Positions 15,281 to 37,377 of a stretch of DNA of 64,000 nucleotides are shown here, piece after piece. Below the pieces are notes generated by a model, which was not told where the DNA came from, did no database searches, and saw only the letters and a list, made by a program, of their open reading frames with translations. Both the position numbers and the translations under genes were made by a program. Every line of letters begins with the position of its first letter. The first letter of the stretch is position 1. The stretch lies in contig NZ_LT629758.1 of assembly GCF_900104725.1 (NCBI RefSeq), positions 3,844,001-3,908,000 of the forward strand, given 5' to 3'. This stretch comes from Actinoplanes derwentensis. Lineage in GTDB: Bacteria > Actinomycetota > Actinomycetes > Mycobacteriales > Micromonosporaceae.

Positions 15281-16642
15281 CTACTCAAACCTCCGGCGGC
15301 CGCGAACGATGGCGACCGTGTTGAGGAGGGCGAGAACTCCGCCGATGCCGGCGATGACCAGGCCCAGCGAGACGGCGCCCCCATGGGCCGCGGCCGGGAC
15401 GAGCAACAGAGTGACGGCCGCGGCCGACAAGGCGGCGCCGACGTACTGGGCGGTGCGGTAAAGGCCGCTGGCGATGCCGAGAGCCGCTGTCGGGGCCGCG
15501 GCGTGCAGCTCGCCCTGGTTGCCGAGGTTGTTGAAGCCGTTGGGCACACCGAGCAATGCACCGACGACGATCATCGTCCACCACGCAGCGTCGTCGCGCA
15601 GGACCAGCGCCATGCTCATGCCTGCGATCACGGTGGTGACGCCGCCGATGATCAGCAGGGCGCGGGGCTGCAAGATCCGGCCGGCGAAGGTGGCCGCCAT
15701 GGTGCTGAGCACGCCGGTGCCGAAGATCGGCATCATCAGCAGCCCGGCCTGGGCGGAGCCGAGCCCCCGCGTGGTCTCGAACCACTGGGGCAGGCCGTAG
15801 AAGACGGCGTAGAAACCGATGAAGGTCAGTACCGCCCGGCCGCAGGTGGTCAGTACACCGCGGTGGCGCAGCAGCAACCGGACGTCCACGAAGGGAGTCG
15901 CCGCGCGGCGTTCCCGCAGCAGGAAAGCCGCCCAGCAGGGCAGTGACAGGACGACCGGCAGCAGGGAACCGGCCTGGCCGAGGCGCAGCAACCCGGCCAT
16001 CAGCAGGGTCAGGGCGGCGGTGAAGAGCACCAGCCCGGGCAGGTCCAGCCGGCCCAGCAGACCCTGCCGCCGACCGAGAGGTGGATCCTTGGGCACCGTG
16101 GCGTACAGCCAGACGGCCGAGTTGAGAACGAGCGGCAGATTGACCCAGAAGATGCTCTGCCAGCCGAACGCCGAGACCAGGACGCCGCCGACCGAGGGCC
16201 CGATGGCCGCGACGGTCTGCCCGCACAGCGCGATCGTCCCCATGGATCTTCGCTGGCCCTCGCCCGGGGTGCCGGCGAGCCGGCGCACGAGCACCATCGC
16301 GGCCGGGAAATGCACCGACGCGCCGATCCCCATCAGGACGCGGTCCGCGACGAGCCAGCCAGCCGAGGGCGCGAACGGCCCAGCGATCGCGGTGAGCAGC
16401 ACGACGGCGAGCCCGGCGGCGTAGAGCCGCCGGGCTCCGAACAGGTCGACGAGGCGGCCCATGGCGGGCGAGGCCACAGCACAGGCGATGTACATGCCGG
16501 AGACCAGCCACGGAAGGGCGGCGGTCTCGCCGAAGTGGGCGCCGATGGACACCAGCGCGACCGCGATCATCGAGGAGTTGAAGCCCTGCAGCACAGTGCC
16601 CGAACCGAGCACCCAGCCGAGCTGGCGGGATAGCGATTTCAC
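15281..16642 (-). CDS. MFS transporter (DHA2-like), last gene of the leftward catabolic operon
   Basis: A 453-residue protein with about 13-14 hydrophobic segments, typical of 14-helix drug/metabolite:H+ antiporters. The loop after helix 2 carries GRLVDLFGARRLYAAGL, a variant of MFS motif A, and SVGGVLVSAFGWQSIFWVNLPL is the familiar family block around helix 5. Its start follows directly on the stop of the upstream deacetylase-fold gene, so it belongs to the catabolic operon. It may import the substrate, export a product or remove a toxic intermediate. The direction of transport is inference. Confidence 0.85.
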   Translation of the reverse strand: MKSLSRQLGWVLGSGTVLQGFNSSMIAVALVSIGAHFGETAALPWLVSGMYIACAVASPAMGRLVDLFGARRLYAAGLAVVLLTAIAGPFAPSAGWLVADRVLMGIGASVHFPAAMVLVRRLAGTPGEGQRRSMGTIALCGQTVAAIGPSVGGVLVSAFGWQSIFWVNLPLVLNSAVWLYATVPKDPPLGRRQGLLGRLDLPGLVLFTAALTLLMAGLLRLGQAGSLLPVVLSLPCWAAFLLRERRAATPFVDVRLLLRHRGVLTTCGRAVLTFIGFYAVFYGLPQWFETTRGLGSAQAGLLMMPIFGTGVLSTMAATFAGRILQPRALLIIGGVTTVIAGMSMALVLRDDAAWWTMIVVGALLGVPNGFNNLGNQGELHAAAPTAALGIASGLYRTAQYVGAALSAAAVTLLLVPAAAHGGAVSLGLVIAGIGGVLALLNTVAIVRGRRRFE

Positions 16643-17539
16643 TTAGCCGGTGACCTGGCCCGGTAGCAGGATACGGATGTCCGGGTGTGCGGCCAGCCGG
16701 GTCAGCACCCGCTCGGCGACGTCGGCGAAGCAGGCCTGGCCGAGGACCCAGCCGAACCAGCTCAACCCGAGGAACCGGGGGCCGGTGACGGCCGCGTCGG
16801 CCAGGAGCTGGTCGACGGTGTCGTCGAGCAGTCGTTCGTAGTCGCCGAAGGGCAGGCCCCGGGTGTAGAGCGCGAACATGTCCTCGGTCTCCAGCCCGAA
16901 CGGCAGCGCGGTGAGGCCGTCACCGACCGGGACGGGCACCTCGTCCAGCGGCCAGTCACCGAACCAGGCGAAACCGGCGCCACGCAGGATGCCACTGGTC
17001 AACGGCGTGCTTGCGCGTTCGGGAGAGAACCAGCCGGTGGATGTGCGGCCGGTGGCCGCTTCGACCGCGGCGCGCGCCTCCCGTATGTACCGCTGCTGCT
17101 CGTCGGGGGTCATGGCGGGAGACAGGATCGCGTTGGCCGCCTCACCTCGCACAACGATCTCACCGGCCAGGGACGAGACCGCTGCGGCCAACCCGGGTAG
17201 CCGGGTGCCGTAGGAATCGAGGGCGACCGCCACCGGCACGTTCAGGCCGGCCGCGATGTCCAGGAGCCGGAAGATCCCGGTGGTGAGACCGAAGTCCCAT
17301 TGCGATAGCCGTGCGACCTGACCGTGGCGGGGCTCGCTGGTCTCGCGGCCGACACCACCCTGCATCGCCGCGGGCTTGTGCCGCGGCGGCAGCACGACGT
17401 CCTGGTATGCCGGCGCGTGCAACAGCACGCTGACCGTGAGCGGGGCATCGGCTTGCCACGGGGGCCGTGACGGTTCGTAGGAGCGCGGGATGTCCGGGGC
17501 GTAGACGATCGCGTCGGCGGGGTGTGGGATCAGGGTCAT
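16643..17539 (-). CDS. Polysaccharide-deacetylase-fold protein, apparently metal-site deficient
   Basis: A 298-residue paralogue of the upstream gene with the NodB/PuuE-like barrel. The middle of the fold is recognisable (LTTGIFRLLDIAAGLNVPVAVALDS), but the segment that normally carries the metal-binding H-x3-H reads VVRGEAANAILS, and I see no Asp-Asp pair near the N-terminus. It is therefore probably a non-catalytic partner of the neighbour, whose start it overlaps by 4 bp. Members of this superfamily include allantoinase PuuE and other amide-bond hydrolases. Function unknown. Confidence 0.7.
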   Translation of the reverse strand: MTLIPHPADAIVYAPDIPRSYEPSRPPWQADAPLTVSVLLHAPAYQDVVLPPRHKPAAMQGGVGRETSEPRHGQVARLSQWDFGLTTGIFRLLDIAAGLNVPVAVALDSYGTRLPGLAAAVSSLAGEIVVRGEAANAILSPAMTPDEQQRYIREARAAVEAATGRTSTGWFSPERASTPLTSGILRGAGFAWFGDWPLDEVPVPVGDGLTALPFGLETEDMFALYTRGLPFGDYERLLDDTVDQLLADAAVTGPRFLGLSWFGWVLGQACFADVAERVLTRLAAHPDIRILLPGQVTG

Positions 17540-18453
17540 CGGGCGAGTCCCTCGGCGTGGGCGACCTGTTCGTCGTAGTGGTGCTCGAGATAGTGATCGG
17601 TGATCTCGCCGGCTGTGGTGACCCAGATCCGCTCGTCGCCGCGGACATGGTCGAAGATCTCCGCCAGGTACCGGGCCAGGTACGGCTGTCCGGAGACGAA
17701 CGGGTGGGTGGCCAGGCAGGCGACGCGGCCCTGTCCGTCGCGGTCGCTGTCGCGCAGCAGCCGGTCGATCTGGGCTTTCGCGATGGCCACGAAGTACTCG
17801 CCGGTGAAGTGCTTGGCGTGCAGCAGCGGCACATCGTTGAGCATGAACGAGTACGGGATCGACACCAGCCGGTCGCCGGTCGCGGTGCGCAGCGGGCGCG
17901 GCTGTTCGTCGTGGATCCAGTCGGCGTGGTAGGTCATGCCGTGCTTGACCATCAGGTCACAGGTGTTGTCGGTGCCGCTGACCTTCGGGCCCAGCATGCC
18001 CTTGATCCGCCGCCCGCCGTAGTAGGTCTCGGCCAGGCGTTGCGAAAGGGCCAGGAACGCGTCCTCGTCGTCGTAGGCCATGTCGTAGATCGGGCGCAGG
18101 TTGGAGATGCCGTGGCTCATGATCTCCCAGTCCCGCTCGAACATGGCGTCGCGGACCTCAGGCATTTCCTCCAGCACCGACAGGCTCAGCGAGACCGAGG
18201 CGGGCATCGCGAACTGGTCGCTGACGCGCAGCATGCGCCAGAACCCGGCCCGGTTGCCGAAGTCGCGGTGCGCGTAGTGCTGCAGGTCAGGTGCGGTGAC
18301 CCGGCCCTGCGGGGAGCCGCCGCCGGGCGGGACGTAGTCGTAGTGCTCGATGTTGGGCGCGTGCCAGAAGGCGAGTGTTCTGCCCTGCGGCCAGGTGACC
18401 TGTGGCCGGCCGGGCAGGGGGGCGTAGACGAGGCGGTCGTTGTTGTCGATCAT
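17536..18453 (-). CDS. Polysaccharide deacetylase/allantoinase-like amidohydrolase
   Basis: A 305-residue protein; ATG 18453 overlaps the stop of the isochorismatase gene (ATGA), which decides the start. It resembles the PuuE-type branch of the NodB superfamily, which hydrolyses C-N bonds in small ring or linear amides rather than chitin. Visible blocks: TLAFWHAPNIEHYDYV near residue 30, EIMSHGISNLRPIYDM near 120 (one histidine of the H-x3-H site, the second being Asn here), and VACLATHPFVSG near 240, which supplies a late conserved His. It is cytoplasmic, with no signal peptide. With the downstream paralogue it probably forms a heteromer acting on a nitrogenous intermediate. Confidence 0.75.
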   Translation of the reverse strand: MIDNNDRLVYAPLPGRPQVTWPQGRTLAFWHAPNIEHYDYVPPGGGSPQGRVTAPDLQHYAHRDFGNRAGFWRMLRVSDQFAMPASVSLSLSVLEEMPEVRDAMFERDWEIMSHGISNLRPIYDMAYDDEDAFLALSQRLAETYYGGRRIKGMLGPKVSGTDNTCDLMVKHGMTYHADWIHDEQPRPLRTATGDRLVSIPYSFMLNDVPLLHAKHFTGEYFVAIAKAQIDRLLRDSDRDGQGRVACLATHPFVSGQPYLARYLAEIFDHVRGDERIWVTTAGEITDHYLEHHYDEQVAHAEGLAR

Positions 18454-19079
18454 GCGGCCAGCCGCTTCAGGGTCTCGTCGAGGGAGACGACGTCGGCGAA
18501 CCGGTCCTGCATGTCCCAGAGCGACACCTCGCCGGACAGGGTGCGGAAGTCGTCGACGCATTCCTCGACCACTGACACGCGCAGGCTGCGGTAGGCGGCG
18601 TCCATGACGGTGGCACGGACACAGCCGCTGGTGCTGGTGCCGGCGACGATCACCTCGTCGGTACCCAGCTTGGCCAGCAGGTCGTCCAGGCCGGTCCGGT
18701 AGAAGCCGGTGGCGACCGTCTTCTCCACGACGTGGTCGCCGTCCTGCACGGCTACGACCGAGCTGACCTCGGTCCACGGGTTGCCGCGCTCGCAGCGTTC
18801 GGTGAGCGAGGAACGGACCCTCTGGGCGAGCATCCGGTCATCGAGCGAGTCGAGGATCATGACGAGATAGATCACCGGCACGCCCGCGGCCCGGGCGGAA
18901 TCCAGCAGGGCTGCGGTGTTGCGCAGGGCGATCGCTGCCGAGGGACCGCAGCCCTCGTGCTCGACGAACGCCTTCTGGAAGTCCACCACGAGCACGGCCG
19001 GGTTCTCCCCCGGCCCGATACGGGTCCGCTCGGCCCGTAGCTCGCGGATCCGGGCCACCTCGGCGTTCCAGTCGGTCAT
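18450..19079 (-). CDS. Isochorismatase-family cysteine hydrolase 1 (amidohydrolase)
   Basis: A 209-residue enzyme with the complete catalytic triad of the family: Asp in VVDFQKAF (about residue 33), Lys in VVEKTVATGFYRT (about 119) and nucleophilic Cys in TSTSGCVRAT (about 152). Relatives hydrolyse amides or carbamoyl groups, for example N-carbamoylsarcosine amidase, nicotinamidase and maleamate amidase. The N-terminal helix before the Asp is longer than in nicotinamidases and closer to N-carbamoylsarcosine amidases. It overlaps the second isochorismatase by 4 bp. The likely role is release of ammonia from an open-chain amide in the pathway. Confidence 0.85.
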   Translation of the reverse strand: MTDWNAEVARIRELRAERTRIGPGENPAVLVVDFQKAFVEHEGCGPSAAIALRNTAALLDSARAAGVPVIYLVMILDSLDDRMLAQRVRSSLTERCERGNPWTEVSSVVAVQDGDHVVEKTVATGFYRTGLDDLLAKLGTDEVIVAGTSTSGCVRATVMDAAYRSLRVSVVEECVDDFRTLSGEVSLWDMQDRFADVVSLDETLKRLAA

Positions 19080-19672
19080 GGCGTTACACCCTTCTTCAGA
19101 TACGGAAGATCGTTCATCAGTACGACGTCGGCGATCTTGGCCGCGATGTCGTTCAGGTTGGCCTCGTGGATCGCCGGGTCCCGGTCGCCGACGGCTTCGC
19201 GGACCACGAGCGGGACGAAGCCGTGCTGGAGTGCGTCCAGGGCACTGGCGCGCACACAGCCGCTGGTGGAGAGCCCGGCGATGAGCAGGGTGTCGATGCG
19301 TCGGGCGGTGAGTGACGCGGCCAGGGCAGTGCCGAAGAAGGCACTGGGGTACTGCTTGGTCAGCAGCATCTCGCCGGGCCGGTGTTCCAGGCCGGCGATC
19401 GGCTCGGCGAGTGGGTTGCCGGCGGCGAACGCGGCGCTGCCGGGGACCTTGCGCGCGAAGAGGCCGCCGTCGCCGGGTTGCTCGTGCCGGACCCGCGTGA
19501 TGATGACGGGCAGGCCGGCCGCGCGGACGAGCGCCAGCAGCTCCCGCATCCGGTCGACGGCATCCTCGACGCCGGCGTACAGCGGTGAGCCGGGCTCGGT
19601 GTAGGCGCGGGCCGGATCGATCAGCAGCAGCGCGGGTCGCTCACCCGGATCGAGGTGTCCGCCGAAGATCAT
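19076..19672 (-). CDS. Isochorismatase-family cysteine hydrolase 2 (amidohydrolase)
   Basis: 198 residues from ATG 19672, chosen because it overlaps the stop of the Dabb gene. The triad is intact: Asp in LLLIDPARAY, Lys in LLTKQYPSAFFGT, Cys in LSTSGCVRAS. It is only distantly similar to the adjacent isochorismatase, so the pair may act on two successive amides or form a mixed oligomer. No signal peptide. Substrate unknown. Confidence 0.85.
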   Translation of the reverse strand: MIFGGHLDPGERPALLLIDPARAYTEPGSPLYAGVEDAVDRMRELLALVRAAGLPVIITRVRHEQPGDGGLFARKVPGSAAFAAGNPLAEPIAGLEHRPGEMLLTKQYPSAFFGTALAASLTARRIDTLLIAGLSTSGCVRASALDALQHGFVPLVVREAVGDRDPAIHEANLNDIAAKIADVVLMNDLPYLKKGVTP

Positions 19673-19962
19673 GCGGCCACCTGGACGAAGGTCTTCGCCG
19701 CGAGCACCGGGGCGATCCGTTCCTTGATGACGGCGACGTGGTCGGGGTGGGTCCGGTAGCCCTCCCAGGCGGCCTGGTCGGCGAAAGTCAGGTGGAAGAC
19801 CAGGGTGGCGTTGCCTGGGGTGAGGCCGGCGTCCCGGTCCACCTTGGCCTCGACGAGCCCGGGGATCGTCGCGGGCAGCGCGAGCAGCCCGGCCACGATC
19901 GCGTCGGCGTTCTCGGCGGTGGCCTCGTCGACCAAGGTCAGCATGCCGATGTGCTGGAACAT
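19669..19962 (-). CDS. Dabb (stress-responsive A/B barrel) domain protein
   Basis: A 97-residue single-domain protein with the ferredoxin-like dimeric A/B barrel: an N-terminal strand FQHIGMLTLVDEAT, central PGLVEAKVDRDAG and a conserved YRTHPDHVAVIKERIAP near the end. Small Dabb proteins in catabolic operons act as cyclases, decarboxylases or isomerases, or as heme or product-binding factors. The specific role is not predictable. It overlaps the next gene by 4 bp and is 18 bp from the racemase-fold gene. Confidence 0.85.
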   Translation of the reverse strand: MFQHIGMLTLVDEATAENADAIVAGLLALPATIPGLVEAKVDRDAGLTPGNATLVFHLTFADQAAWEGYRTHPDHVAVIKERIAPVLAAKTFVQVAA

Positions 19963-19980: not shown

Positions 19981-20724
19981 TCAGTGGTCTGCCAGCAGGC
20001 GGCCGTGGCCGGTCAGCTGGTCGGGGATGCCTTGAGCACGCAAGGCGTGCCACACCGTCGCCGCGTTGATGGCGATGACCGGCTTGCCGAGCTCGGCTTC
20101 CAGCTCGGCGGCCACGGCTACGGCGGCGAGGTTCGTGCCGGCCTGCACAAGAACGTCGACGTCCGGCGCGTCGACCTCCAGGAACGCCGCCCGGATCTCC
20201 GCGGGCGTGACGTCGGCGATGGAGGTGGCGCTGTCGCACTTGAATCCGCGTACGGCGGCCACGTCGTAGCCGAGGTCGGTGAAGAAGGTACGGACCTGCT
20301 CGTCACCGACCGGCTGGTAAGGGGTGATCACGGCGATTCGGCGGGCGCCGAAGGCCTTGAGCGCGGCGTCGCAGGCGGCGGCGCCGCTGGAGACCTCCAG
20401 GCCGGAGATCTCCCGAATGTGCTTCTCGAAGTCGGCGTTCCCGGCGGCCCCGCCCCAGAACGTCTCGGCGGACATGCCCATGACGATGCGGTCGGGCAGA
20501 CAGGTGACGACGTCGCGGACGGCGGTGTCGAGCTGCGTGCGCAGGTCTTCGAGGAACGCCACCATGTCGTCGTCTCCGCCCAGACCGGGCTTCGCGATGT
20601 AGATGCGGCCCGTGTGGAAGCTGACGCCGGGTGGGCGCATGTCGTTGTACTCGGCCTCGACGACGGTGTTGGTGGACGGCACGATCACGCCGAGGACGGC
20701 GCGGGGGGAGGTGACGGTGGTCAT
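19981..20724 (-). CDS. Asp/Glu racemase-superfamily protein (maleate isomerase/arylmalonate decarboxylase-like)
   Basis: A 247-residue protein whose ATG at 20724 overlaps the upstream stop. It has the fold signatures of maleate cis-trans isomerase and arylmalonate decarboxylase: GVIVPSTNTVVEAEYNDM at the N-terminus, MGMSAETFWGGAAG near residue 85 and DVLVQAGTNLAAV near 195. In classical maleate isomerases and racemases these two loops carry the paired catalytic cysteines; here they read MSAET and AGTN, so neither cysteine is in place. Cysteines elsewhere (VVTCLPD, AACDAAL) are not at the usual positions. A decarboxylase, lyase or hydrolase function is therefore as likely as isomerisation. Confidence 0.8.
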   Translation of the reverse strand: MTTVTSPRAVLGVIVPSTNTVVEAEYNDMRPPGVSFHTGRIYIAKPGLGGDDDMVAFLEDLRTQLDTAVRDVVTCLPDRIVMGMSAETFWGGAAGNADFEKHIREISGLEVSSGAAACDAALKAFGARRIAVITPYQPVGDEQVRTFFTDLGYDVAAVRGFKCDSATSIADVTPAEIRAAFLEVDAPDVDVLVQAGTNLAAVAVAAELEAELGKPVIAINAATVWHALRAQGIPDQLTGHGRLLADH

Positions 20725-22793
20725 GCGGGCTCTCCTTCGGTGAGCAACGTGGCAAGGTCGGACCAGGTCCGGGTGAGAGTGGTGTCGGCGCTGCCTTCGG
20801 CGGCTATCGAGGCGTAGGCGGAGTACACCGCGCGGGTGGCGGCGAGCAGCCCAGCGACCGGGAAGAGCACGACGGCGACGCCGGCGGCCCGCAGGTCGTC
20901 GAGCTCGGCCGGGCCGGGCAGTTCCCGGGCGGCCTCGCTGCGGCTGATCACCAGCGGCAGCCGGGTGGCCTGGTGCACCCGCAGCAGCCGGTCGGTGTCG
21001 AGTTCGCCCTCGAGGAACAGCAGGTCGGCTCCGGCCGCCGCATAGGCCCGCAGGCGGTCCAGCGCGGCGTCGAAGCCCTCGGGCAGCAGGGCGTCGGTAC
21101 GGGCGATCACCAGCAGTTCCGTACGCGCGGCGACCGCAGCCCGGATCTTGGCGGCCATCGCCGTCGTACCGATGAGTTGTTTGCCCTGCTCGTGACCCTC
21201 GCGCTTGGGGTGTCGCTGATCCTCCAACTGGATGGCGGCCGCGCCGGCGCGTTCGTAGGCGCGGACGGTCGCCGCGACCTGGTCCGGGCCGCCGTAGCCG
21301 TCGTCGCCGTCGGCGATGAGTGGGACGCCGGTGCTCGCGGCCAACCGGCGGATCTGGGCGACCATGTCGGAACGGCCCACGTAGCCGTTGTCGAGCGCAC
21401 CGAGCGCTGTCGCTGCGACCGCTGCCCCGGAGACGTACCCGGCAGGAAAGGACGTGAGGGCTCGGGCGGAGACCGCGTCGTGTGCGCCCGGCGCGAAGAC
21501 GACGGGCCCGGTGGCGAGAGCGGCGGCGAGGCGGCGGCCGGCGGGGCTCGGCACGCGCGGCCCGGCGGCGCGCAGCCCGGCCGCCAGCTGCCGGCGTGAC
21601 GTACTCCATGAGGTGAGCATCGAACTGCCGAGCAGGTAGCGGCGGGCCAGTTCCGGGTCGGCGGCCGTCTTGCCCAGGCTCAGCGCGCGCTTGTGGCGGG
21701 CGCCGGTGTCCGACTCCTGCAGGTCGGCATAGTTGCGCCTGGTCGTCGTCTGCACGTAGGAGACGGCGGCGTCGCGGCGCGCCTCGGCGTACGCGCGGGC
21801 GCAGCCGCCCGGGTCGGCGCCTTCCAGGGCGGCCAGGACCGCGTCGGCGGCGGCCCAGGCGTCCTGGACGCCGCTGTTCATCCCGAGCCCGCCGAGCGGA
21901 TTGTTGACGTGTGCGGCGTCCCCGGTGATCAGTACCCGGCCGGCGGCGAAGGTCGCGGCGACCCGCTGGTGGACGGCGTAGACGGTGATGTGCTCCAGCG
22001 GGTAGTCCTCGGCACGGGGCACGATGCGCCGTAGCCGGGTCTGCACTGCTCGCGGGTCGGTGGCCTGCTCGTCGGTCACGTCCGCGGCGATCTGCATGAG
22101 GATGCGCCAGTGCCGGGGGGTGCGCAGCAGCACGCCCCAGTCGTCCGGGTCGGACACGTACGACACCGGCGCCAGACCGGGGATGTCGTCGGCGAGCTCG
22201 TGCGTGGTGGAGGCGACCAGGAACCGCTCGGGGAAGGTGAAGCCCTCGAACGCGATGCCGAGGCTCTTGCGCACGGCCGAACCGGCGCCGTCCGCGGCGA
22301 TGACCCAGCGGCCGCGATACGAGGGTTCGCGGCCGTCGCCGGGCACGAAAACCCCCACGCCGTCGCTGCCGATCTCGACCCGCCGCACCGGGGCGCCGAA
22401 GACGAGCCGGGCGTTCGGCAGCTCACGCAACCGGCTGGCGATGATCTCGGTGAGGTTGTTCTGCTCGCTCTGCAGCCGGTACGGATACTTCGTGTCGCCG
22501 GCCAGCACCGCCAGGTCGAGGTCGGCGAGCACCGTCCCGGTCCGGTCGCGATACTGGAACGTCCGGGCGATCAGGCCCCGCTCGTGCAGCGCGTCAGCCA
22601 CGCCCAGCTCGTCGAGGATCTCCAGCGTCGGCGGGTGGAACGTCGACGCGCGGGACTCGGCGGCGAGCGTGTCGCCAGCCTCGAGGACGACGACGTCGAC
22701 GCCGCGCCGGGCGAGCGCGAGCGCCGCCACCATGCCGACGGGGCCCATCCCCACGACGACGACGGTCGCGGGGGAAGGCAGGGGGTTGGTCAT
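20721..22793 (-). CDS. FAD-dependent monooxygenase fused to an isocitrate-lyase/PEP-mutase domain
   Basis: A 690-residue bifunctional protein from ATG 22793. Residues 1-~400 form a PHBH/MhpA-type flavin hydroxylase: dinucleotide motif VVVGMGPVGMVAALAL, DG motif VIAADGAGSAVRKSLGI and FAD-phosphate motif GDAAHVNNPLGGLGMNSG. Residues ~430-690 are a TIM barrel of the isocitrate lyase/PEP mutase family: PLIADGDDGYGG with the metal-binding Asp residues, AAIQLEDQ, and LLVIARTDALL. The loop that carries the catalytic Cys (KKCGH) in isocitrate and methylisocitrate lyases reads KREGHEQGK, so the C-C bond chemistry differs or relies on another base. There is no internal stop or likely restart between domains. 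Ring hydroxylation or opening followed by C-C cleavage in one protein is the inferred logic. Confidence 0.85.
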   Translation of the reverse strand: MTNPLPSPATVVVVGMGPVGMVAALALARRGVDVVVLEAGDTLAAESRASTFHPPTLEILDELGVADALHERGLIARTFQYRDRTGTVLADLDLAVLAGDTKYPYRLQSEQNNLTEIIASRLRELPNARLVFGAPVRRVEIGSDGVGVFVPGDGREPSYRGRWVIAADGAGSAVRKSLGIAFEGFTFPERFLVASTTHELADDIPGLAPVSYVSDPDDWGVLLRTPRHWRILMQIAADVTDEQATDPRAVQTRLRRIVPRAEDYPLEHITVYAVHQRVAATFAAGRVLITGDAAHVNNPLGGLGMNSGVQDAWAAADAVLAALEGADPGGCARAYAEARRDAAVSYVQTTTRRNYADLQESDTGARHKRALSLGKTAADPELARRYLLGSSMLTSWSTSRRQLAAGLRAAGPRVPSPAGRRLAAALATGPVVFAPGAHDAVSARALTSFPAGYVSGAAVAATALGALDNGYVGRSDMVAQIRRLAASTGVPLIADGDDGYGGPDQVAATVRAYERAGAAAIQLEDQRHPKREGHEQGKQLIGTTAMAAKIRAAVAARTELLVIARTDALLPEGFDAALDRLRAYAAAGADLLFLEGELDTDRLLRVHQATRLPLVISRSEAARELPGPAELDDLRAAGVAVVLFPVAGLLAATRAVYSAYASIAAEGSADTTLTRTWSDLATLLTEGEPA

Positions 22794-26571: not shown

Positions 26572-26588
26572 GTTCCTCCCAGCGGAAC
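26572..26588. promoter_or_regulatory. Operator copy 3, GTTCC-N7-GGAAC
   Basis: Third copy of the dyad, 30 bp (about three helical turns) downstream of copy 2 and 11 bp before the GTG start of the IclR gene. The pair on one face of the helix suggests cooperative binding and autorepression of the regulator and its operon. Confidence 0.7.
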
Positions 26589-26598
26589 CAGAGCGGCG

Positions 26599-28526: not shown

Positions 28527-28826
28527 ATGGCCGGCGGCGACGTCGCACAGCGACCGCAGTACCTGGGCAGCGACCGGCTGGACGACCTGGCCCGGATGAT
28601 CCTCGAGCTCACCACCGAGCTGTGGATCCTCAAGGACCGCACCATCGTGCTCGAACACCTGCTCGCCGAGCACGGCGTCGTCTCCCCCGGCGCGGTCGAC
28701 CTCTTCCAGCCCGGCACCGACCTGGCCCAGTCCCTGCGCGACGAGCGCGAGGCCCTGGTGCGCCGGGTCATGGGCGCTGTCCTGACCTCCGACGAACGAC
28801 TCGCACTCGCACTCGGCAAGAAGTAG
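28527..28826 (+). CDS. Small protein of unknown function, ELW-LKDR family, copy 1
   Basis: A 99-residue soluble protein, one base after the methyltransferase stop. I do not recognise the family. It is predicted fully helical, with a central LTTELWILKDRTIVLEHLL and then AEHGVVSP, and a final segment rich in Arg and Glu. The same pattern recurs in the protein at 33561-33833, so it is a real, duplicated gene of this system. Its tight linkage to the methyltransferase suggests a subunit or adaptor role. Confidence 0.75.
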   Translation: MAGGDVAQRPQYLGSDRLDDLARMILELTTELWILKDRTIVLEHLLAEHGVVSPGAVDLFQPGTDLAQSLRDEREALVRRVMGAVLTSDERLALALGKK

Positions 28827-30437: not shown

Positions 30438-31514
30438 ATGACGATGACGACCACCGGTGCGCCCCTCGTGGCCGACCTGCCCGTCGACCAGCGCGGCCGT
30501 GCCGAGTTGGACTTCCTCCGCGCGGTACGCGGAGGACTCGCCCCGTTGCGCACCCGTATCCGTGAGCGGTTGCAGGCCGGGGGCGCGTTCGACGGGCCCT
30601 TCACCACCATCGAGGCGCTGCGGGCCGGTGCCGATGCCCAGCTGAGGGACGCGCCCGACCACCGCGTCACCGGTGCCGTGCTGCGCTGGGCCCGTGACCA
30701 GCAGACCCCGCGCGCCACCGCCCTGTTCGACCGCAACCGCGACCGGCTGCTGATCTACGCCACCCCACGCAGCACCGACCCGGTCGACGACCGGCTCGGC
30801 GAGCAACCGCCACCGCGCTACTGGACCTACGAGTTCCACGGCACCACCGGCGGCTGGGACGGCCACGAGCACATGGGCTTCATCCACCACGAGCTCGTCT
30901 ACGGACGGCTGCTCACCGCGGCGTACGGCGGCGACATCTTCGCCCAGCGCACCACGGTCGCGCAGGCCGCGCCCCGTGACGACTACGCCCGCATCGCCGA
31001 CCTCGGCTGCGGCACCGGCCAATACACGATGAAACTTGCCGAGGTCTACCCGCAGGCTCGGATCACCGGCGTCGACCTGTCACATGCCGAACTGGTCTAC
31101 GCTCGCCGCCGCGCCGAGCAAGCCGGCCACGACTGGCACCTGGTCCGCGCTCCGGCCGAGGACACCACCCTGCCAGCCGACTCGTTCGACCTGGTCACCT
31201 CGTTCATCCTGCTGCACGAGGTGCCACCGCACATCACCCGCAAGATCTTCGCCGAGGCGTTCCGGCTGCTTGCCCCAGGCGGCGACGTGCACATGTCCGA
31301 CGTCGCCCCGTACCGGCTGCGCAGCGGTTACCAGGCCTGGGCCGACGACTGGGACGCCGAGAACGGCTCCGAGCCGTGGTGGCGCAGCGCGGCCACGATG
31401 GATCTCGCCTCCGTCGCCACCGACGCCGGCTTCGTGGAGGTCCGCCAGGCAGCGTCGGGGCGCGAGTCGTACCCCTGGGTGTTGACCGCCCGTAAGCCGG
31501 CGGCCGCCGCATGA
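30438..31514 (+). CDS. Class I SAM-dependent methyltransferase 2
   Basis: A 358-residue paralogue of the first methyltransferase, with GGAGG upstream of ATG 30438. It shares the GGWDGHEHMGFIHHELVYG block before the SAM domain; motif I reads IADLGCGTGQYTM. Differences in the N-terminal helical region suggest distinct substrates or a heterodimer. The last codons overlap the following ATPase gene by 4 bp, so it is translated as part of the transport operon. Confidence 0.85.
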   Translation: MTMTTTGAPLVADLPVDQRGRAELDFLRAVRGGLAPLRTRIRERLQAGGAFDGPFTTIEALRAGADAQLRDAPDHRVTGAVLRWARDQQTPRATALFDRNRDRLLIYATPRSTDPVDDRLGEQPPPRYWTYEFHGTTGGWDGHEHMGFIHHELVYGRLLTAAYGGDIFAQRTTVAQAAPRDDYARIADLGCGTGQYTMKLAEVYPQARITGVDLSHAELVYARRRAEQAGHDWHLVRAPAEDTTLPADSFDLVTSFILLHEVPPHITRKIFAEAFRLLAPGGDVHMSDVAPYRLRSGYQAWADDWDAENGSEPWWRSAATMDLASVATDAGFVEVRQAASGRESYPWVLTARKPAAAA

Positions 31515-32548
31515 CCCCGGCCTCCGCCGTGGCGGCGGTCCCGGCCGGCACCACCGCGGCCGCGGGTGAGACGCTCACCTTCACCGACGTACGGGTGTCC
31601 GTACCCACCGCCAACGGCCCGCTGCAGATCCTCGGCGGCGTCACCTTCGACGTCCCGGCCGGCGCGGTGGTCGCGCTCGCAGGCGAGTCCGGATCCGGCA
31701 AGTCCACCGCCATGCTCAGCGTCCTGCGCCTGCTCCCGTGGGGCGCCGAGGTCACCGGTTCCATCCGGTACGGCGAGCGCGAGGTCACCGCGCTGACGGC
31801 CCGGCAGTTGCGCGAGTTCCGGGCCCGGCACGCCCGCGTGATCTTCCAGGACCCGTGGAGCTCACTGCACCCGATGCACACGCTCGGCCAGCAGCTGATC
31901 GAGTCCGCCCGAAGCGCCGACCCGGCCCTGTCGAAACGCGACGCCCGCCGCCTCGCCGTCGAGACCCTCGCCCGTGTCGGACTGCCGGACCCGGACGCAC
32001 GCATGGCGGCGCACCCGCACCAGCTTTCCGGCGGACAGTTGCAACGCGTGATGATCGCCATGGCGCTGGTGGCCCGCCCGACCCTGCTGCTGTGCGACGA
32101 GCCGACCACCGCACTCGACGTCACCACCCAGGCGCAGATCCTCGAATTGCTGCGCGAACTGAACCGCGACATGGGCCTGACCGTCATCATCGCCACCCAC
32201 GACCTGGAGGTCATCGCGGACTTCGCCGACCACCTCGTCGTCATGTACGCCGGCCGCGTCGCCGAGCAGGGGCCGGTCGCCCGGATGCTGGCAGCGCCCC
32301 GGCACCCGTACACCTGGGCGCTGCTGGGCGCGGCACCCGCCCGGCAGCGCGGTACCCGGCTGCTTCCCATCGAAGGCCGGCCGCCCCGGCTCGACGAATT
32401 GCCCCCGGGCTGCGCGTTCGCCCCCCGCTGCGTCTTCGCGGAGGCGCAGTGCACCGAGACCGACCCGCAGCCGCTGCTGGTGGACCCCGCGACGGGACAT
32501 CGCACGGCCTGCGTACGGGTGCAGCAACAGGAAGGACGAACGGCATGA
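31511..32548 (+). CDS. Oligopeptide-type ABC transporter ATP-binding protein (DppD/OppD-like)
   Basis: A 345-residue ATPase with Walker A GESGSGKST, signature LSGGQLQRVMIA, Walker B LLLCDEPTTALD and switch His in IIATHDLEV. The C-terminal oligopeptide extension is present, with a cysteine cluster (GCAFAPRCVF) characteristic of Opp/Dpp ATPases that can bind a [4Fe-4S] cluster. It pairs with the next gene, overlapping by 4 bp, to power the importer. Confidence 0.92.
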   Translation: MTPASAVAAVPAGTTAAAGETLTFTDVRVSVPTANGPLQILGGVTFDVPAGAVVALAGESGSGKSTAMLSVLRLLPWGAEVTGSIRYGEREVTALTARQLREFRARHARVIFQDPWSSLHPMHTLGQQLIESARSADPALSKRDARRLAVETLARVGLPDPDARMAAHPHQLSGGQLQRVMIAMALVARPTLLLCDEPTTALDVTTQAQILELLRELNRDMGLTVIIATHDLEVIADFADHLVVMYAGRVAEQGPVARMLAAPRHPYTWALLGAAPARQRGTRLLPIEGRPPRLDELPPGCAFAPRCVFAEAQCTETDPQPLLVDPATGHRTACVRVQQQEGRTA

Positions 32549-33564
32549 GCGACCCGGTCCTGCGCCTCGACGGCATCGAACAGACCTTCCGCGGCACCCG
32601 CGGCGTCCACCTCCGGGCTCTGGACGGGGTGTCACTGAGCATCGGCCGCGGCGAGACTCTCGGCCTGGTGGGAGAGTCCGGCAGCGGCAAGAGCACGATC
32701 GGCCGCACAGCGCTGCGCCTCTACCGCCCGACCGCGGGCTCGGTGCATTTCGAGGGCCACGACATCACCCGGATGCACGGCCGTGAACTGGGCCGGGTGC
32801 TGCGCCGTCGTTCGGCGATGATCTTCCAGAACCCGTCCACCTCACTGAACCCTGCGCTGCGGCTGGCCGACACCCTCGACGAGCCGCTGCGCATCCACCG
32901 CGCCGGTACCCCCGCCGAGCGGCGCTCCCGTGTCGGCGAGGCCCTGGAACGCGTCGGACTGGATCCAGCCATGGGCAGCCGCTACCCGAAGGAGCTGTCC
33001 GGCGGGCAGCGGCAGCGGGTCGGCGTCGCCCGGGCGTTGATGCTCAACCCGGCCCTGGTGGTCGCCGACGAGCCCACCGCCTCGCTGGACGTCTCGGTGC
33101 AGGCCCAGGTTGTCAACCTGCTCGCCGACCTGCAGGCCGAGCGGGGCTTCTCGTACCTTTTCATCAGCCATGACCTGGCCCTGGTCCGGCACCTCAGCCA
33201 CCGCATCGCCGTGCTCTACCTGGGCCGGATCGTCGAGATCGGACCGGCTGCCGACGTCTTCGACCGGCCCGCGCACCCCTACACGACCGCGCTCGCCTCG
33301 ATGGGCCATCCGGCGAGCGAGCGGGTCGTCCCCGGCGGGGAGATCCCGTCACCGGCCGCACCGCCGCCCGGCTGCGCCTTCCATCCCCGGTGTCCGATCG
33401 CTCGCGACCGGTGTGGCACCGAACGCCCGGTCTTGCAGCCCACCGGCGACGGGCGCGAGGTCGCCTGCCACTTCGCCGGGGAACTGACCCTTACCACCGC
33501 ACGTGAGCAGCCGGCGGCACCCCCGCCGCCGCTGCCCCTGCCCACCGCGAAGGAACTGGTGTGA
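32545..33564 (+). CDS. Oligopeptide-type ABC transporter ATP-binding protein (DppF/OppF-like)
   Basis: 339 residues from ATG 32545, chosen because of its ATGA overlap with the upstream stop. Walker A GESGSGKST, signature LSGGQRQRVGVA and Walker B LVVADEPTASLD are intact, and the C-terminal extension carries GCAFHPRCPIA. It completes the ATPase heterodimer of the importer. A Pro-rich tail follows the domain. Confidence 0.92.
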   Translation: MSDPVLRLDGIEQTFRGTRGVHLRALDGVSLSIGRGETLGLVGESGSGKSTIGRTALRLYRPTAGSVHFEGHDITRMHGRELGRVLRRRSAMIFQNPSTSLNPALRLADTLDEPLRIHRAGTPAERRSRVGEALERVGLDPAMGSRYPKELSGGQRQRVGVARALMLNPALVVADEPTASLDVSVQAQVVNLLADLQAERGFSYLFISHDLALVRHLSHRIAVLYLGRIVEIGPAADVFDRPAHPYTTALASMGHPASERVVPGGEIPSPAAPPPGCAFHPRCPIARDRCGTERPVLQPTGDGREVACHFAGELTLTTAREQPAAPPPPLPLPTAKELV

Positions 33565-33833
33565 GCGGCTTCGCCCTGGACGACCCCAAGTACCTGCAGG
33601 CTTCCGACCTCGACGGGGTGCTACGCGCCGTGCTGGAGGTCGCCTCCGAGCTGTGGGTGCTCAAGGACCGGTTCGCCGTCCTGGAACAGGTCATGGCCGA
33701 ACGCGGCTACGTCACCCCCGAGGACCTGGACCGGACCGAGCCCACCGTGGACACCGAGGCCCGGCTGGCCGCCGAGCGGACCGCATTCACCGCCCGCATC
33801 ATCGGGTCTGTCGCCGGAGCAGACCCGGCATGA
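33561..33833 (+). CDS. Small protein of unknown function, ELW-LKDR family, copy 2
   Basis: A 90-residue paralogue of the protein at 28527-28826: ASELWVLKDRFAVLEQVMAE followed by RGYVTPEDLD aligns directly, and both end with an Arg/Glu-rich helix. It overlaps the ATPase gene upstream and the permease gene downstream by 4 bp each, so it is a fixed member of the transport operon. Function unknown; an all-helical adaptor or small subunit is the best description. Confidence 0.75.
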   Translation: MSGFALDDPKYLQASDLDGVLRAVLEVASELWVLKDRFAVLEQVMAERGYVTPEDLDRTEPTVDTEARLAAERTAFTARIIGSVAGADPA

Positions 33834-34756
33834 CCCGGTTCCTCATCCAGCGCCTCGCGCTGATGGTCCTCGTGGTGGCGGGCGTGACGACGTTCCTGTT
33901 CGCCCTGTCGCGGCTCTCCGGCGATCCCGCGCAGATCTTCTCGCCGCCGGAGGCAAGCGACGCCGTCGTCGCCGCCACCCGGGAACGGCTCGGCCTCGAC
34001 GCCCCGCTGTGGCAGCAGTACGCCGACGCGATCACCGGAGCGTTCCAGTTCGACTTCGGCACCTCGTTCGCCTTCCGTACGCCGGCCGGGCAACTCGCGC
34101 TGGAACGCCTCGGCCCGAGCCTGACCGTCGTGCTACCCGCTCTGCTGCTGGCGTTCCTACTGGCCCTGGCCATCGGCACGTTCGCCGCGCTGTACCCCAC
34201 CCGGCTGCGGGGACGGGTCGCGATGGCCGGCGCCTTCGTCACCGACGGCGTTCCGTTCTTCCTGGTCGCCTTCGTACTCGTGCTGGTGTTCGCAATCTGG
34301 CTGCGCTGGGTGCCGGCCACCGGCAGCACCGGGCTCATCAGCCTCGTCATCCCGGTCGCGGTGCTCACCATCCACGCTGTCTCCACCCTGTCGCGCCTGG
34401 TCCGCGGGCAGTTGCTCGACGCGCTGGCCACCGGTCCGGTCGTCACCGCCCGGTCCAAGGGCCTGCCACCCCGCACGATCCTGCTGCAGCACGCCTTCCC
34501 GATCGCCCTACCCCCGGTGCTGGCCTGGCTGGGCATCCAGTTCTCCTTCATGTTCAGCGCGCTGCTCGTGCTGGAGCCGATCCTCAACTATGGCGGACTG
34601 GGCGGGCTGCTCGTACGTTCGGTCACCAACCGGGACTTCCCAGTCGTGCAGGCATGCGTCTTCGTCATCGCCGTACTGATCACCCTCGCCAACATCGGCA
34701 CCGACATGATCGTGCGGTTGCTCGACCCGCGGCTACGAGCAGGAGTGAGCCGATGA
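33830..34756 (+). CDS. Oligopeptide-type ABC transporter permease (DppB-like)
   Basis: 308 residues from ATG 33830, which overlaps the preceding stop. The conserved N-terminal block (MTRFLIQRLALMVLVV, then RLSGDPA), six membrane segments and the EAA-type loop (LDALATGPVVTARSKGLP) mark a DppB/OppB permease. It pairs with the next gene to form the channel. Confidence 0.92.
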   Translation: MTRFLIQRLALMVLVVAGVTTFLFALSRLSGDPAQIFSPPEASDAVVAATRERLGLDAPLWQQYADAITGAFQFDFGTSFAFRTPAGQLALERLGPSLTVVLPALLLAFLLALAIGTFAALYPTRLRGRVAMAGAFVTDGVPFFLVAFVLVLVFAIWLRWVPATGSTGLISLVIPVAVLTIHAVSTLSRLVRGQLLDALATGPVVTARSKGLPPRTILLQHAFPIALPPVLAWLGIQFSFMFSALLVLEPILNYGGLGGLLVRSVTNRDFPVVQACVFVIAVLITLANIGTDMIVRLLDPRLRAGVSR

Positions 34757-35664
34757 CCACCGTCGCCGCGCCCCCGCGCAAGGCACCGTCCCGGTTCCGG
34801 GAGATCGCCACGCGCACCTGGGCCAACCCGTCCGGCAAACTGGCCCTGTCCATGCTGGCCCTGCTGGTGCTCGCCGCGGTGTTCGCGCCGCTGCTGGCCG
34901 GCCAGGACCCAGCCGTGCAGAAACTGTCGGCCACCAACGACCCGCCATCGTGGCTCGGCGGCATCGGCGGGCATCCGCTCGGCGCCGACAACCTCGGCCG
35001 AGACGTGCTCAGCCGCATCCTGCACGGCCTGCGCCTCAGCCTCGCCGTCGGTGCGCTGACCGCCACCGCCGGGGCCGTGCTGGGTCTCGCCCTCGGACTG
35101 CTGGCCGGCTACTACGAACGCAGCGTCGGCGCGGTACTGCTGCGCCTGGCCGATATCCAGTTCTCCATCCCGTTCGTTGCCGTCGGCATCGCCCTGGCCG
35201 CCGTCCTGGGCCCCGGCATCGGCCGTCTGATGGTGGTGCTCGCCCTGTGGGGCTGGCCCATCTACGCCCGCACCATCGTCACCACGGTCGCCCAGACCTG
35301 CCGCCTCGACTACGTCACCGCCGCCCGCACCATGGGAGCGCACCCGTTCGGCCTGCTCCTGCGGCACGTCGCCCCCAACATCCTCGGCCAGGTGATCGTG
35401 CTCTGGTCGACGACCGCGGGCGCCCTCGTGCTCGCCGAGAGCTCCCTGAGCCTGCTCGGCCTCGGCGTGCAGCCACCCGGCTTCTCCCTGGGCAGCATGC
35501 TCGCCGACGCCCCGACCAGCCTGCGCCTGAGCTGGTGGGCCACGGTCTTTCCCGGCGTCGCCCTGCTGCTGATCGTGCTCGCGTTCAACATGCTCGGCGA
35601 CGCCGTCCGCGACGCCCTGGAGCCAGGGACCCACCGTGCCCCTCACGACCCCGACCTGACCTGA
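34753..35664 (+). CDS. Oligopeptide-type ABC transporter permease (DppC-like)
   Basis: 303 residues from ATG 34753 with a 4-bp overlap. Features: an N-terminal cytoplasmic tail, a first membrane segment, the conserved HPLGADNLGRDVLSRILHG block after it, and an EAA loop (YVTAARTMGAHPFGLLLRH). It completes the five-component importer (binding protein, two permeases, two ATPases). Confidence 0.92.
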   Translation: MTTVAAPPRKAPSRFREIATRTWANPSGKLALSMLALLVLAAVFAPLLAGQDPAVQKLSATNDPPSWLGGIGGHPLGADNLGRDVLSRILHGLRLSLAVGALTATAGAVLGLALGLLAGYYERSVGAVLLRLADIQFSIPFVAVGIALAAVLGPGIGRLMVVLALWGWPIYARTIVTTVAQTCRLDYVTAARTMGAHPFGLLLRHVAPNILGQVIVLWSTTAGALVLAESSLSLLGLGVQPPGFSLGSMLADAPTSLRLSWWATVFPGVALLLIVLAFNMLGDAVRDALEPGTHRAPHDPDLT

Positions 35665-35676
35665 TAAGGATCCCCC

Positions 35677-37377
35677 GTGACCGACACCCCGGTGCGATTC
35701 GCCGCCGCACAGTTCTTCTCCGGCACCGACGTCACCGCCAACGCCGCCCGCTGCGTCGACCTGCTCACCGAAGCCACCGCAGCCGGTGCTCGCCTGCTCG
35801 TGCTGACCGAGAACGCCAACCGTGTGCGCGACTACGTCTCCCGGCAGCAGTGCTGGGAACTGTCCGAAGACCTCGACGGAGAATTCGTCACCACCCTGCG
35901 CGCTGCCTGCGCCCGCCTCGGCATCTGGTGCGTCGCCGGCGTCGACGTCCGCGCCGAGGCCCCGGACGTGCACATCAGCTCGCTGCTCATCGACGACCGC
36001 GGCGAGTTGCGCCACGTGCACCGCAAGCACGTTCTCTGGGACTACGAGTACACCCTGTTCGTGCCCGGCGACGAACCGCTGACCGTCGTGCACACCGAAC
36101 TCGGCCGTCTCGGGCTGCTCATGTGCGCCGACGGCATCGTGCCTGACGTGCCCCGTCTGCTCGCCCTGCAGGGCGCCGAGGTCCTGCTCAACTCACTCAA
36201 CTCCCGCGGTCCCGACGAGATGCGTGTACACGTGCCGCTGCGCGCGATGGAGAACCGGGTCTGGCACGTCTCCGCCAACACCGTCGGCGGACCGGCCGAC
36301 GCCTGGCCCTGGATGGGCGGCTCGCAGATCGTCGCCCCTGACGGCACCGTCGTCGCAGCGGCCGACGAGGAGACCGAACAGATCATCTGGGCCGACATCA
36401 CCCCGGCTGTGGCACGCGACAAGACCGTGCCGGGACTCGCGGACGTCTTCGCCTGGCGGCGCCCCGACTTGTACGCCGACCTGCTGGCCGATCTCGCCGA
36501 CGTGCCCGTGGCCGCGATGTACGGACCGGCGCCCGCCGATATGGCGCCGATGCCGCTCGACGTGGCCACCCTGCAGGTCTCCTGGTTCCACAACCGCGAC
36601 TGGACGGTGACCCGTGCCCTGAGCCAGGTCAAGTACGCGGCCGGACGGGGCGCGAAGCTCGGCGTCCTGCCCGAGCTCTTCTGCTTCCGCCCCGGCGAAG
36701 TGGCCACCGACCCGGCCGCCGCGGCCCGGTTCTCCGCGCAGGTGCTCGCCCGGCTCGGCGAAGCCGCCGCCGAGCATGGCATCTGGCTCGTCGCGCACCT
36801 GGTCGAGAGCGACGGTGAGCGCTTCTACTCCACGGCGTGGCTGCTCGATGACACCGGCGCTGGCGCGCTGCGCTATCGGCGTACTCATCTGAGCGACGAC
36901 GACCGGTCCTGGGCAACCCCCGGTGACGACCTTCCGGTAGCCGACACGACCATCGGCCGGATCGGCCTGATGATCGGCACCGAGGTCTGGGTTCCCGAGG
37001 TCGCCCGCGTGCTCGCCGTGCGCGGCGCCGAGATCATCGCGCACCCGTGCTCGTGGGACCGTCCCGAGGCCGCACATATCGCCGCCACAGAGCGCACCGA
37101 GGAGAACCGAGTGCACCTGGTGTCGGCAGCACGTCTCGACAACCCCGCCGGCGTGGGCAGCCAGATCCTGCGGGCCGACGAGTTCGGCCCCTACCAGCCC
37201 ATCGCCCTTATGCGCTACCCGAGCGCGGTGTGGAGCCGCCACGGCTTTGAGGAACAACTCCTCGTCCGTCTCGACCGCCGCGAGGCCCACAGCAAGATGA
37301 TGGGCCACCACCTCGACCCGGTTGCGTCCCGCCAACCGGCGATCTACGGACCCCTGGCGGGACTCAGTCTAAAGTAG
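35677..37377 (+). CDS. Tandem nitrilase-superfamily protein, N-half catalytic, C-half degenerate
   Basis: A 566-residue protein from GTG 35677 with AAGGA upstream. Two consecutive carbon-nitrogen hydrolase domains are visible. The N-terminal one keeps the whole triad: Glu in LLVLTENAN, Lys in VHRKHVLW and Cys in LGLLMCADGIVP. The C-terminal one keeps Glu (LGVLPELFCF), but the Lys position is Arg (YRRTHL) and the Cys segment reads GLMIGTEVWVPE, so it cannot form the thioester intermediate. It should hydrolyse or form an amide or nitrile bond with one active site per chain. Last gene of the rightward operon, 12 bp after the permease. Confidence 0.88.
   Translation: MTDTPVRFAAAQFFSGTDVTANAARCVDLLTEATAAGARLLVLTENANRVRDYVSRQQCWELSEDLDGEFVTTLRAACARLGIWCVAGVDVRAEAPDVHISSLLIDDRGELRHVHRKHVLWDYEYTLFVPGDEPLTVVHTELGRLGLLMCADGIVPDVPRLLALQGAEVLLNSLNSRGPDEMRVHVPLRAMENRVWHVSANTVGGPADAWPWMGGSQIVAPDGTVVAAADEETEQIIWADITPAVARDKTVPGLADVFAWRRPDLYADLLADLADVPVAAMYGPAPADMAPMPLDVATLQVSWFHNRDWTVTRALSQVKYAAGRGAKLGVLPELFCFRPGEVATDPAAAARFSAQVLARLGEAAAEHGIWLVAHLVESDGERFYSTAWLLDDTGAGALRYRRTHLSDDDRSWATPGDDLPVADTTIGRIGLMIGTEVWVPEVARVLAVRGAEIIAHPCSWDRPEAAHIAATERTEENRVHLVSAARLDNPAGVGSQILRADEFGPYQPIALMRYPSAVWSRHGFEEQLLVRLDRREAHSKMMGHHLDPVASRQPAIYGPLAGLSLK

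Follow-up and report, generated by a model that had tools for sequence, protein, structure and literature searches.

Which pathway is encoded by a divergent set of catabolic-looking and uptake genes in Actinoplanes derwentensis was the question raised by a 64,000-nucleotide stretch of its genome (RefSeq GCF_900104725.1, contig NZ_LT629758.1, positions 3,844,001 to 3,908,000; hereafter the window), located between 3.84 and 3.91 Mb in a genome of 10.65 Mb on a single contig. Gene calls based on codon usage and third-position GC content (GC3), combined with Pfam and NCBIfam scans, confirmed that a two-arm gene cluster is present: 22 genes extend over window positions 15281-37377, with 11 genes on the left arm (minus strand, 26412 down to 15281) and 11 on the right arm (plus strand, 26599 up to 37377). 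For nine open reading frames (ORFs) the start codon was shifted inwards relative to the longest reading. An earlier, sequence-only reading of the window had listed 21 genes, all of which were seen; the total becomes 22 once the IclR regulator gene is counted. Adjacent genes overlap by 4 bases at 6 of the 10 left-arm junctions, the arms are separated by 186 bp (26413-26598), and the GC content of the window is 67-74% in 2-kb steps. From their sequences, the two arms apparently form one co-regulated catabolic/uptake unit, which follows the general logic of known catabolic routes for hydroxy-(hetero)arenes and amides and includes unusual parts. No published description of this gene set was found in the literature searched, in keeping with the earlier statement that it matches no known pathway.

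The distribution of the cluster was followed with a profile of MT2, a methyltransferase of the right arm, at a threshold of E 1e-50 in genome samples that overlap. Matches were detected in 5 of 394 genomes of the class sample (own genome included), in 9 of 250, 4 of 245, and 1 of 398 genomes of families f31, f41, and f51, and in 3 of 386 genomes of the order of G377. Within its own family the sole match among 200 genomes was the A. derwentensis genome itself, with MT2 absent from the other 199 sampled, and no close match was detected in 35 genomes of the same genus (best 58 bits vs 815 for self). Together, the MT2-profile matches and one genome named Rhodococcus provided 17 other genomes. The gene order comparison that the sequence-only reading had proposed revealed that the arms co-occur: both are on one stretch in 15 of the 17 genomes and on two contigs in G618. 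A partial contig (L036) with genes of both arms was left out of this count. All 15 clusters encode the tandem nitrilase (NIT2x), monooxygenase, lyase domain, IgiC-type enzyme (AMD), isochorismatase-fold hydrolase ICH2, methyltransferases MT1 and MT2, small protein sm1, substrate-binding protein, and OppD, OppF, DppB, and DppC components. The Dabb protein was found in 14 of the 15, as was the small protein sm2 according to best-hit labels; in the fifteenth cluster (G1520) the sm2 slot is occupied by a small protein that better matches sm1. The accessory genes were less common, with ICH1 in four, the deacetylase-fold and transporter set PDA1-PDA2-MFS (major facilitator superfamily) in three, and the molybdenum (Mo) enzyme genes in two of the 15. 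Two Kineosporia-like clusters (G1508 and G1520) include all the gene types seen in the window and, in addition, a third pair of methyltransferase and small protein (MT-sm) genes, while other clusters have varying sets of flavocytochrome-c-like dehydrogenase, allantoinase/hydantoinase-like amidohydrolase, CoA-transferase, CitE-like, cyclase-like, and PrpD-like genes. Distances between genes of opposite arms were correlated over 16 clusters (r 0.77-0.94, permutation p 0.001), with within-arm values of 0.82-0.95. Overall, these comparisons show a patchily distributed, putative catabolic/uptake unit, the two arms of which are usually together, with 16 comparable clusters in Actinomycetota (window included) and cousins in Pseudomonadota. 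The latter loci (L035, L058, L125, and L124) have the monooxygenase gene paired with AMD and variably accompanied by PDA1-like, lyase-like, or isochorismatase-fold genes. When compared with plasmids, neither the fusion protein (731 records) nor MT2 (88 records) had a match with 80% query coverage. In-frame TGA flags were considered as pseudogene signs and not accepted; the MT1 gene of G1520 is open over 350 amino acids.

In the Nocardioides-like genome G1159, MT2 is missing, and the fusion cluster there comprises an MT-sm pair and an importer that differs from the present one. Inspection of its loci (L165-L168 and L147-L148) also identified (i) a cluster in which the lyase and monooxygenase are split, where aldehyde dehydrogenases and, by sight, a Rieske-like protein are also encoded; and (ii) a separate MT-sm locus. 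The presence of three related loci in one genome suggests that the module is reused for several substrates.

The intergenic region between the arms was found to contain three perfect copies of an operator-like palindrome, GTTCC-N7-GGAAC. One is located on the left operon side, beside the left start codon (26415-26431), and two are on the right operon side, just upstream of iclR (26542-26558 and 26572-26588). These are the only exact copies in the 64 kb, where 0.02 would be expected based on shuffled sequence. When two mismatches were allowed, no enrichment was detected in the window (36 vs 32.5 expected), and thus the signal resides in the perfect sites. A longer form, TGTTCCT-N5-CGGAAC, was present three times in the whole 10.65-Mb genome, at the same three intergenic sites, while the reversed-pattern control gave 0. 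No sigma-70-type promoter was matched within 26300-26700. We infer that the IclR-family regulator encoded by the first gene of the right arm (26599-27435, plus strand; Pfam IclR_C and HTH_IclR) may bind at the three sites. That the two arms are a co-regulated unit, as the sequence-only reading had it, is supported by these shared operator-like sites in this genome. In the Kineosporia-like clusters, the regulators are 28-31% alike to the IclR protein of the window, and the regulator-side intergenic regions (L155-L157 and L158-L160) have TTCCCA-type inverted repeats, noted by eye, that are unlike the window operator.

The fusion of a monooxygenase to a lyase, recognized earlier from the sequence, was found to be real, as FAD_binding_3 and PEP_mutase domains (Pfam) are encoded in one ORF. 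This protein (FADMO; 20721-22793, minus strand) comprises an FAD monooxygenase at approximately residues 1-400 followed by a phosphoenolpyruvate (PEP) mutase/isocitrate lyase (ICL)-type lyase domain at approximately residues 420-680. The nearest PDB structures to residues 1-400 were PnpA (238 bits), with a match that spans nearly the whole monooxygenase domain, and HspB (166 bits), with the next solved relative at 83 bits. PnpA, the closest solved relative, differs in that its solved chain of 418 residues is without a lyase domain. PnpA is a p-nitrophenol 4-monooxygenase, which displaces the nitro group of its nitrophenol substrate. HspB is described in a passage of PMC3812094 as converting 6-hydroxy-3-succinoylpyridine to 2,5-dihydroxypyridine and succinic semialdehyde. 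By analogy with these two nearest relatives, both of which swap a ring substituent for a hydroxyl group, FADMO may do likewise; an HspB/NicC-type flavin monooxygenase is, by homology, present in the cluster, HspB being the second-best PDB relative.

The lyase domain was altered at its active site. Its K(K/R)CGH loop reads PKREGH in the window, with Glu in place of Cys. The Cys is also lost in G377, G1508, and G1520 and in several other fusion proteins, and is kept in 12 other actinobacterial and 3 proteobacterial aligned proteins and in Rhodococcus. The acidic metal-binding motifs DGD/DAD and EDQ are present in 19 of 19 aligned lyase domains. Carbon-carbon cleavage by the ICL-type domain, as first proposed, was not borne out: it is undemonstrated, and the catalytic Cys is gone here. 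When the window is taken together with the 15 comparable clusters, the PDA1-PDA2-MFS set was found exactly in the four Cys-less clusters; there are thus two subtypes, one with the lyase Cys kept and one with it lost and PDA1-PDA2-MFS present. ICH1 was considered as a marker of the Cys-less subtype and rejected, since the Rhodococcus cluster, which keeps the Cys, also has ICH1; therefore, only PDA1-PDA2-MFS tracks the loss.

This domain also figures in one alternative, which we regard as very improbable, namely that the substrate is an alkylated pyrrole or maleimide, for instance a fragment of a tetrapyrrole, which is converted to a branched malate that the ICL-type domain cleaves. The 2,3-dimethylmalate lyase is among the PDB matches of the lyase domain, mesaconate CoA-transferase-, RipC-, and PrpD-like genes are present in sister clusters, and heme-binding HbpA is among the matches of the substrate-binding protein. 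Those latter matches are broad, however, the lyase Cys is missing here, and no heme oxygenase or biliverdin enzyme was recognized in the cluster.

The Mo enzyme was compared with known families. Its large subunit (22808-24934), FAD subunit (24931-25932; Pfam FAD_binding_5 and CO_deh_flav_C), and 2Fe-2S subunit (25936-26412; Pfam Fer2_2 and Fer2) are encoded on the minus strand. In the PDB, the large subunit was closest to the aldehyde oxidases 5y6q (391 bits) and PaoC (363 bits), followed by 4-hydroxybenzoyl-CoA reductase (162 bits) and nicotine/quinoline-type hydroxylases (at most 136 bits). The enzyme resembles PaoABC-type aldehyde oxidoreductases in its three-subunit architecture and in having PaoC (481 bits) and PaoA (179 bits) as the best NCBIfam models of the large and 2Fe-2S subunits, but differs in that these scores are below the equivalog cut-offs (1180 and 322, respectively) and the FAD subunit is nearer another model. 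Directly after DppC, an aldehyde dehydrogenase is encoded in the G377 and Rhodococcus clusters; in both Kineosporia-like clusters DppC is followed by a hydrolase gene, recognized by sight, together with the three Mo genes. Because the large subunit is nearest to aldehyde oxidases and an aldehyde dehydrogenase occupies a comparable slot, the Mo enzyme is read as an aldehyde step. The Mo genes were also considered as specific to the window, which was rejected, as they are in both Kineosporia-like clusters. Mo hydroxylation was thus not sustained as the defining chemistry of the cluster, with the genes in 2 of 15 other clusters and the large subunit far nearer to aldehyde oxidases than to hydroxylases.

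The hydrolases of the cluster were examined for catalytic residues. The 'two amidohydrolases' of the sequence-only reading are instead isochorismatase-fold hydrolases (Pfam PF00857), ICH1 (18450-19079) and ICH2 (19076-19672), both on the minus strand, with a D-K-C triad that is intact in 4 of 4 and 19 of 19 aligned proteins, respectively. ICH1 has structures 4l07 and 26st among its PDB matches; the best is 4l07, which we take to be the S16 amidase. NIT2x (35677-37377, plus strand), earlier called a double nitrilase, does have tandem domains (Pfam PF00795 twice), and the E-K-C residues are intact in the first domain of 17 of 17 proteins; the second domain is without the catalytic Cys in 17 of 17 (window included). 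Two PuuE-like deacetylase-fold proteins are encoded on the minus strand, PDA1 (17536-18453; PDB matches 3s6o and 3cl6, the latter PuuE) and PDA2 (16643-17539). Relative to PDA1, PDA2 has lost two His motifs (SHG to VRG and HPF to WFG) in 4 of 4 aligned proteins, and is probably a degenerate paralogue judging from the alignment. Neither reached the PuuE allantoinase cut-off (TIGR03212, 424.6 bits), with scores of 97 for PDA1 and 42 for PDA2. Serial amide hydrolysis is, therefore, weaker than had been stated, one nitrilase half being without its Cys and PDA2 without two His motifs.

These enzymes could also be accounted for by catabolism of a cyclic ureide, imide, or lactam with a hydantoin- or allantoin-like ring, in which PDA1, or the allantoinase/hydantoinase-like amidohydrolase of sister clusters, would open the ring, the isochorismatase-fold hydrolases and nitrilase would finish the degradation, and FADMO would act upstream. 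We consider this unlikely. It is consistent with the sub-threshold PuuE match of PDA1, an AllB/D-hydantoinase-like protein in sister cluster G128 (224 bits, cut-off 358), a caprolactamase-like pair in the proteobacterial locus L030, and the distant relationship of ICH1 and ICH2 to RutB, biuret hydrolase, and N-carbamoylsarcosine amidase. However, the family scores are all under the curated cut-offs, FADMO is nearest to PnpA and HspB, and no hydroxyisourate (HIU) hydrolase or OHCU (2-oxo-4-hydroxy-4-carboxy-5-ureidoimidazoline) decarboxylase was recognized among the 22 genes.

The racemase-fold enzyme of the left arm (AMD; 19981-20724, minus strand) is a member of the arylmalonate decarboxylase (AMDase)/Asp-Glu racemase superfamily (Pfam PF17645), although both catalytic Cys of the superfamily are missing and the protein is IgiC-type. 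Ser and Ala are present at the two Cys positions. Among the 120 homologues listed (query included), Ser is at the first position in 120 and Cys at the second in 4. In an alignment of 23 proteins, the second Thioclava paralogue was the sole one without Ser, having Cys at the first position, and four other proteins had Cys at the second. AMD was 39.8% identical over full length to the IgiC-type protein of Leisingera NJS201, and both are without both Cys. The link to indigoidine operons is through the UniRef name 'IgiC' of one AMD homologue. An excerpt of PMC5014874 lists igiC of Leisingera JC1 as an arylmalonate decarboxylase, and a passage of PMC12826045 implicates IgiC in pigment formation. 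By sequence, AMD belongs with IgiC of indigoidine operons; the window differs from those operons in its catabolic-looking context and in that no indigoidine nonribosomal peptide synthetase (NRPS) was recognized among the 22 genes. On two plasmids typed as conjugative, from Bradyrhizobium elkanii (L179) and Rhizobium jaguaris (L180), an IgiC-like gene was observed beside an adenylation-domain NRPS, an oxidoreductase, and an MFS gene, with a tautomerase also in L180; these are possible indigoidine-type operons. On the Tistrella mobilis plasmid pTM1 (L176, 10610-16592), genes for a cupin, AMD, GntR, a CoA transferase, an HMG-CoA lyase, NIPSNAP, and an isochorismatase follow one another, and none of them is annotated as a monooxygenase.

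The identity of AMD is relevant to a rearranged maleamate pathway of the nicotinate/nicotine type, in which the Mo hydroxylase and HspB/NicC-like monooxygenase would generate a dihydroxypyridine, the dioxygenase and deformylase would be elsewhere or replaced (PDA1 serving as deformylase), the isochorismatase-fold proteins would be maleamate amidases, and AMD would replace maleate isomerase. As in the nicotine genes of Pseudomonas putida S16 (spmABC, mfs, hspB, iso, nfo, hpo, and ami, as given in part of PMC3812094), the window has a three-subunit Mo enzyme, an MFS transporter, an HspB-type monooxygenase, a protein of the AMDase (Iso) superfamily, and isochorismatase-fold hydrolases together. 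However, AMD is without the two isomerase Cys, the Mo large subunit is nearest to aldehyde oxidases and the Mo genes are missing from 13 of 15 sister clusters, and neither a 2,5-dihydroxypyridine dioxygenase (hpo) nor an N-formyl deformylase (nfo) was recognized among the 22 genes, as the sequence-only reading had remarked for the nicotinate/picolinate enzymes. The sole PF02073 match in the genome, at 9.65 Mb, is not shown to be a dioxygenase and is presumably an M29 aminopeptidase. The window further differs from S16 in having the lyase domain, importer, MT-sm pairs, Dabb protein (19669-19962, minus strand; alpha/beta-barrel, Pfam PF07876), tandem nitrilase, and PDA pair. A maleamate route is, on this balance, improbable.

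The right arm encodes the importer, interspersed with the MT-sm pairs (all plus strand). The importer consists of a substrate-binding protein (SBP_bac_5, Pfam PF00496; 28836-30374), OppD-type (31511-32548) and OppF-type (32545-33564) ATPases identified by NCBIfam, and DppB-type (33830-34756; Pfam PF00528) and DppC-type (34753-35664; Pfam PF00528 and OppC_N) permeases. MT1 (27452-28525; Pfam) and MT2 (30438-31514) are class I S-adenosylmethionine (SAM) methyltransferases that are 38% alike, with a Rossmann SAM-binding fold and glycine-rich motif supported by alignment, predicted model, and fold matches; those of MT2 cover approximately residues 118-356, outside its helical N-terminal part. The small proteins sm1 (28527-28826) and sm2 (33561-33833) are 43% alike and predicted to be helical. 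The AlphaFold2 (AF2) model of sm1 (pLDDT 83) is helical, and sm1 had no Pfam match and no PDB match at E <= 0.001 in a fold search. Cyanobacterial loci among L044-L090 were observed to encode distant methyltransferase homologues, none found with an adjoining small partner gene. The fold matches of the methyltransferases include natural-product methyltransferases, and this, along with a DHA2-type MFS transporter (15281-16642, minus strand; Pfam MFS_1, E 1.7e-41; NCBIfam EmrB family below cut-off) and an AMD subfamily that includes IgiC of a biosynthetic operon, would fit a resistance/detoxification or biosynthetic system in which an antibiotic-like compound is modified and exported. We find this distinctly unlikely, as the unit includes an importer, the catalytic triads of several hydrolases are intact, the MFS gene is in only 3 of 15 other clusters, and no NRPS, polyketide synthase (PKS), or other assembly enzyme was recognized among the 22 genes.

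The model that best accommodates these results, and which we hold only tentatively and at less than even confidence, is the import of a hydroxy-(hetero)arene followed by side-chain-displacing hydroxylation, aldehyde oxidation, and amide hydrolysis to a small dicarboxylate. In the presence of inducer, the IclR repressor would leave its sites, and the Opp-type ABC importer would take up a substituted (hetero)aromatic compound, probably one that contains N; this compound, or an early intermediate, may be methylated by the MT-sm pairs. The PnpA/HspB-type monooxygenase would then place a hydroxyl group on the side-chain-bearing ring carbon and expel the chain, probably as an aldehyde, to be oxidized by the Mo enzyme (or by aldehyde dehydrogenase in two sister clusters). 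The ring product would be acted upon by the IgiC-type AMDase-fold enzyme, and hydrolysis of amide bonds by the isochorismatase-fold hydrolases, PDA1, and the single nitrilase domain that looks active would yield a small dicarboxylate. Finally, the fused lyase domain may cleave or decarboxylate this dicarboxylate, through an altered mechanism given the absence of the catalytic Cys.

Several points weigh against this model and the unity of the two arms. With regard to the unit, (i) a right-arm gene served to find the genomes, such that left arms without the importer are under-sampled, and left-arm clusters without this importer are present in G1159 and in proteobacteria; (ii) the arm-distance correlations are uncorrected for the species tree and may reflect common species descent; and (iii) the operator evidence is from one genome only, the Kineosporia-like regulators being distant. 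With regard to the chemistry, the co-product of HspB is disputed, being named as succinate in an excerpt of PMC6122326, in which case the aldehyde link fails; our confidence in the model is reduced on this account. The Mo genes are in only 2 of 15 other clusters, and the FAD subunit scores best against the NCBIfam model of 4-hydroxybenzoyl-CoA reductase beta (173 bits against a cut-off of 405) rather than that of an aldehyde oxidase. Given the nitrophenol substrate of PnpA, FADMO is just as compatible with a benzenoid ring. AMD is without both Cys, which agrees with none of the isomerase, racemase, or decarboxylase mechanisms known in its superfamily; the lyase domain is without the catalytic Cys of isocitrate lyases; no ring-cleaving dioxygenase or deformylase was recognized among the 22 genes; and the model gives the methyltransferases no explained role. 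A further possibility, which we consider doubtful, is an undescribed, scattered route in which the methyltransferases and the new small helical family are obligatory ('methylate to degrade') and the Cys-less IgiC-type enzyme follows FADMO, such that the ring is opened without a dioxygenase.

Elsewhere in the window, other genes were noted: an EF-G-like GTPase of 567 amino acids (39207-40910, minus strand; GTP_EFTU, EFG_III, and EFG_IV), which we presume to be a ribosomal-protection-type protein; a Beta-lactamase2-family protein (47793-48875, minus strand; PF13354, E 1.5e-32); and a dihydroxyacetone kinase (53894-55633, plus strand; Dak1 and Dak2), followed by a gene with a translation start that, by sight, we take to be RpiB-type isomerase-like.

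Overall, the sequence-only interpretation of the locus was partly supported. If the model of import, side-chain displacement, and amide hydrolysis is true, a pathway with four ill-understood protein types (the Cys-less IgiC-like enzyme, the monooxygenase-lyase fusion, the MT-sm pairs, and the tandem nitrilase with a Cys-less half) could be studied in actinobacteria that grow in culture, and a catabolic parallel would be gained for IgiC of indigoidine operons. Furthermore, as the longer operator form is confined to this intergenic region, the regulon may be limited to the two arms, and a simple screen with IclR and its operator could be used to look for the inducer and, through it, the substrate.

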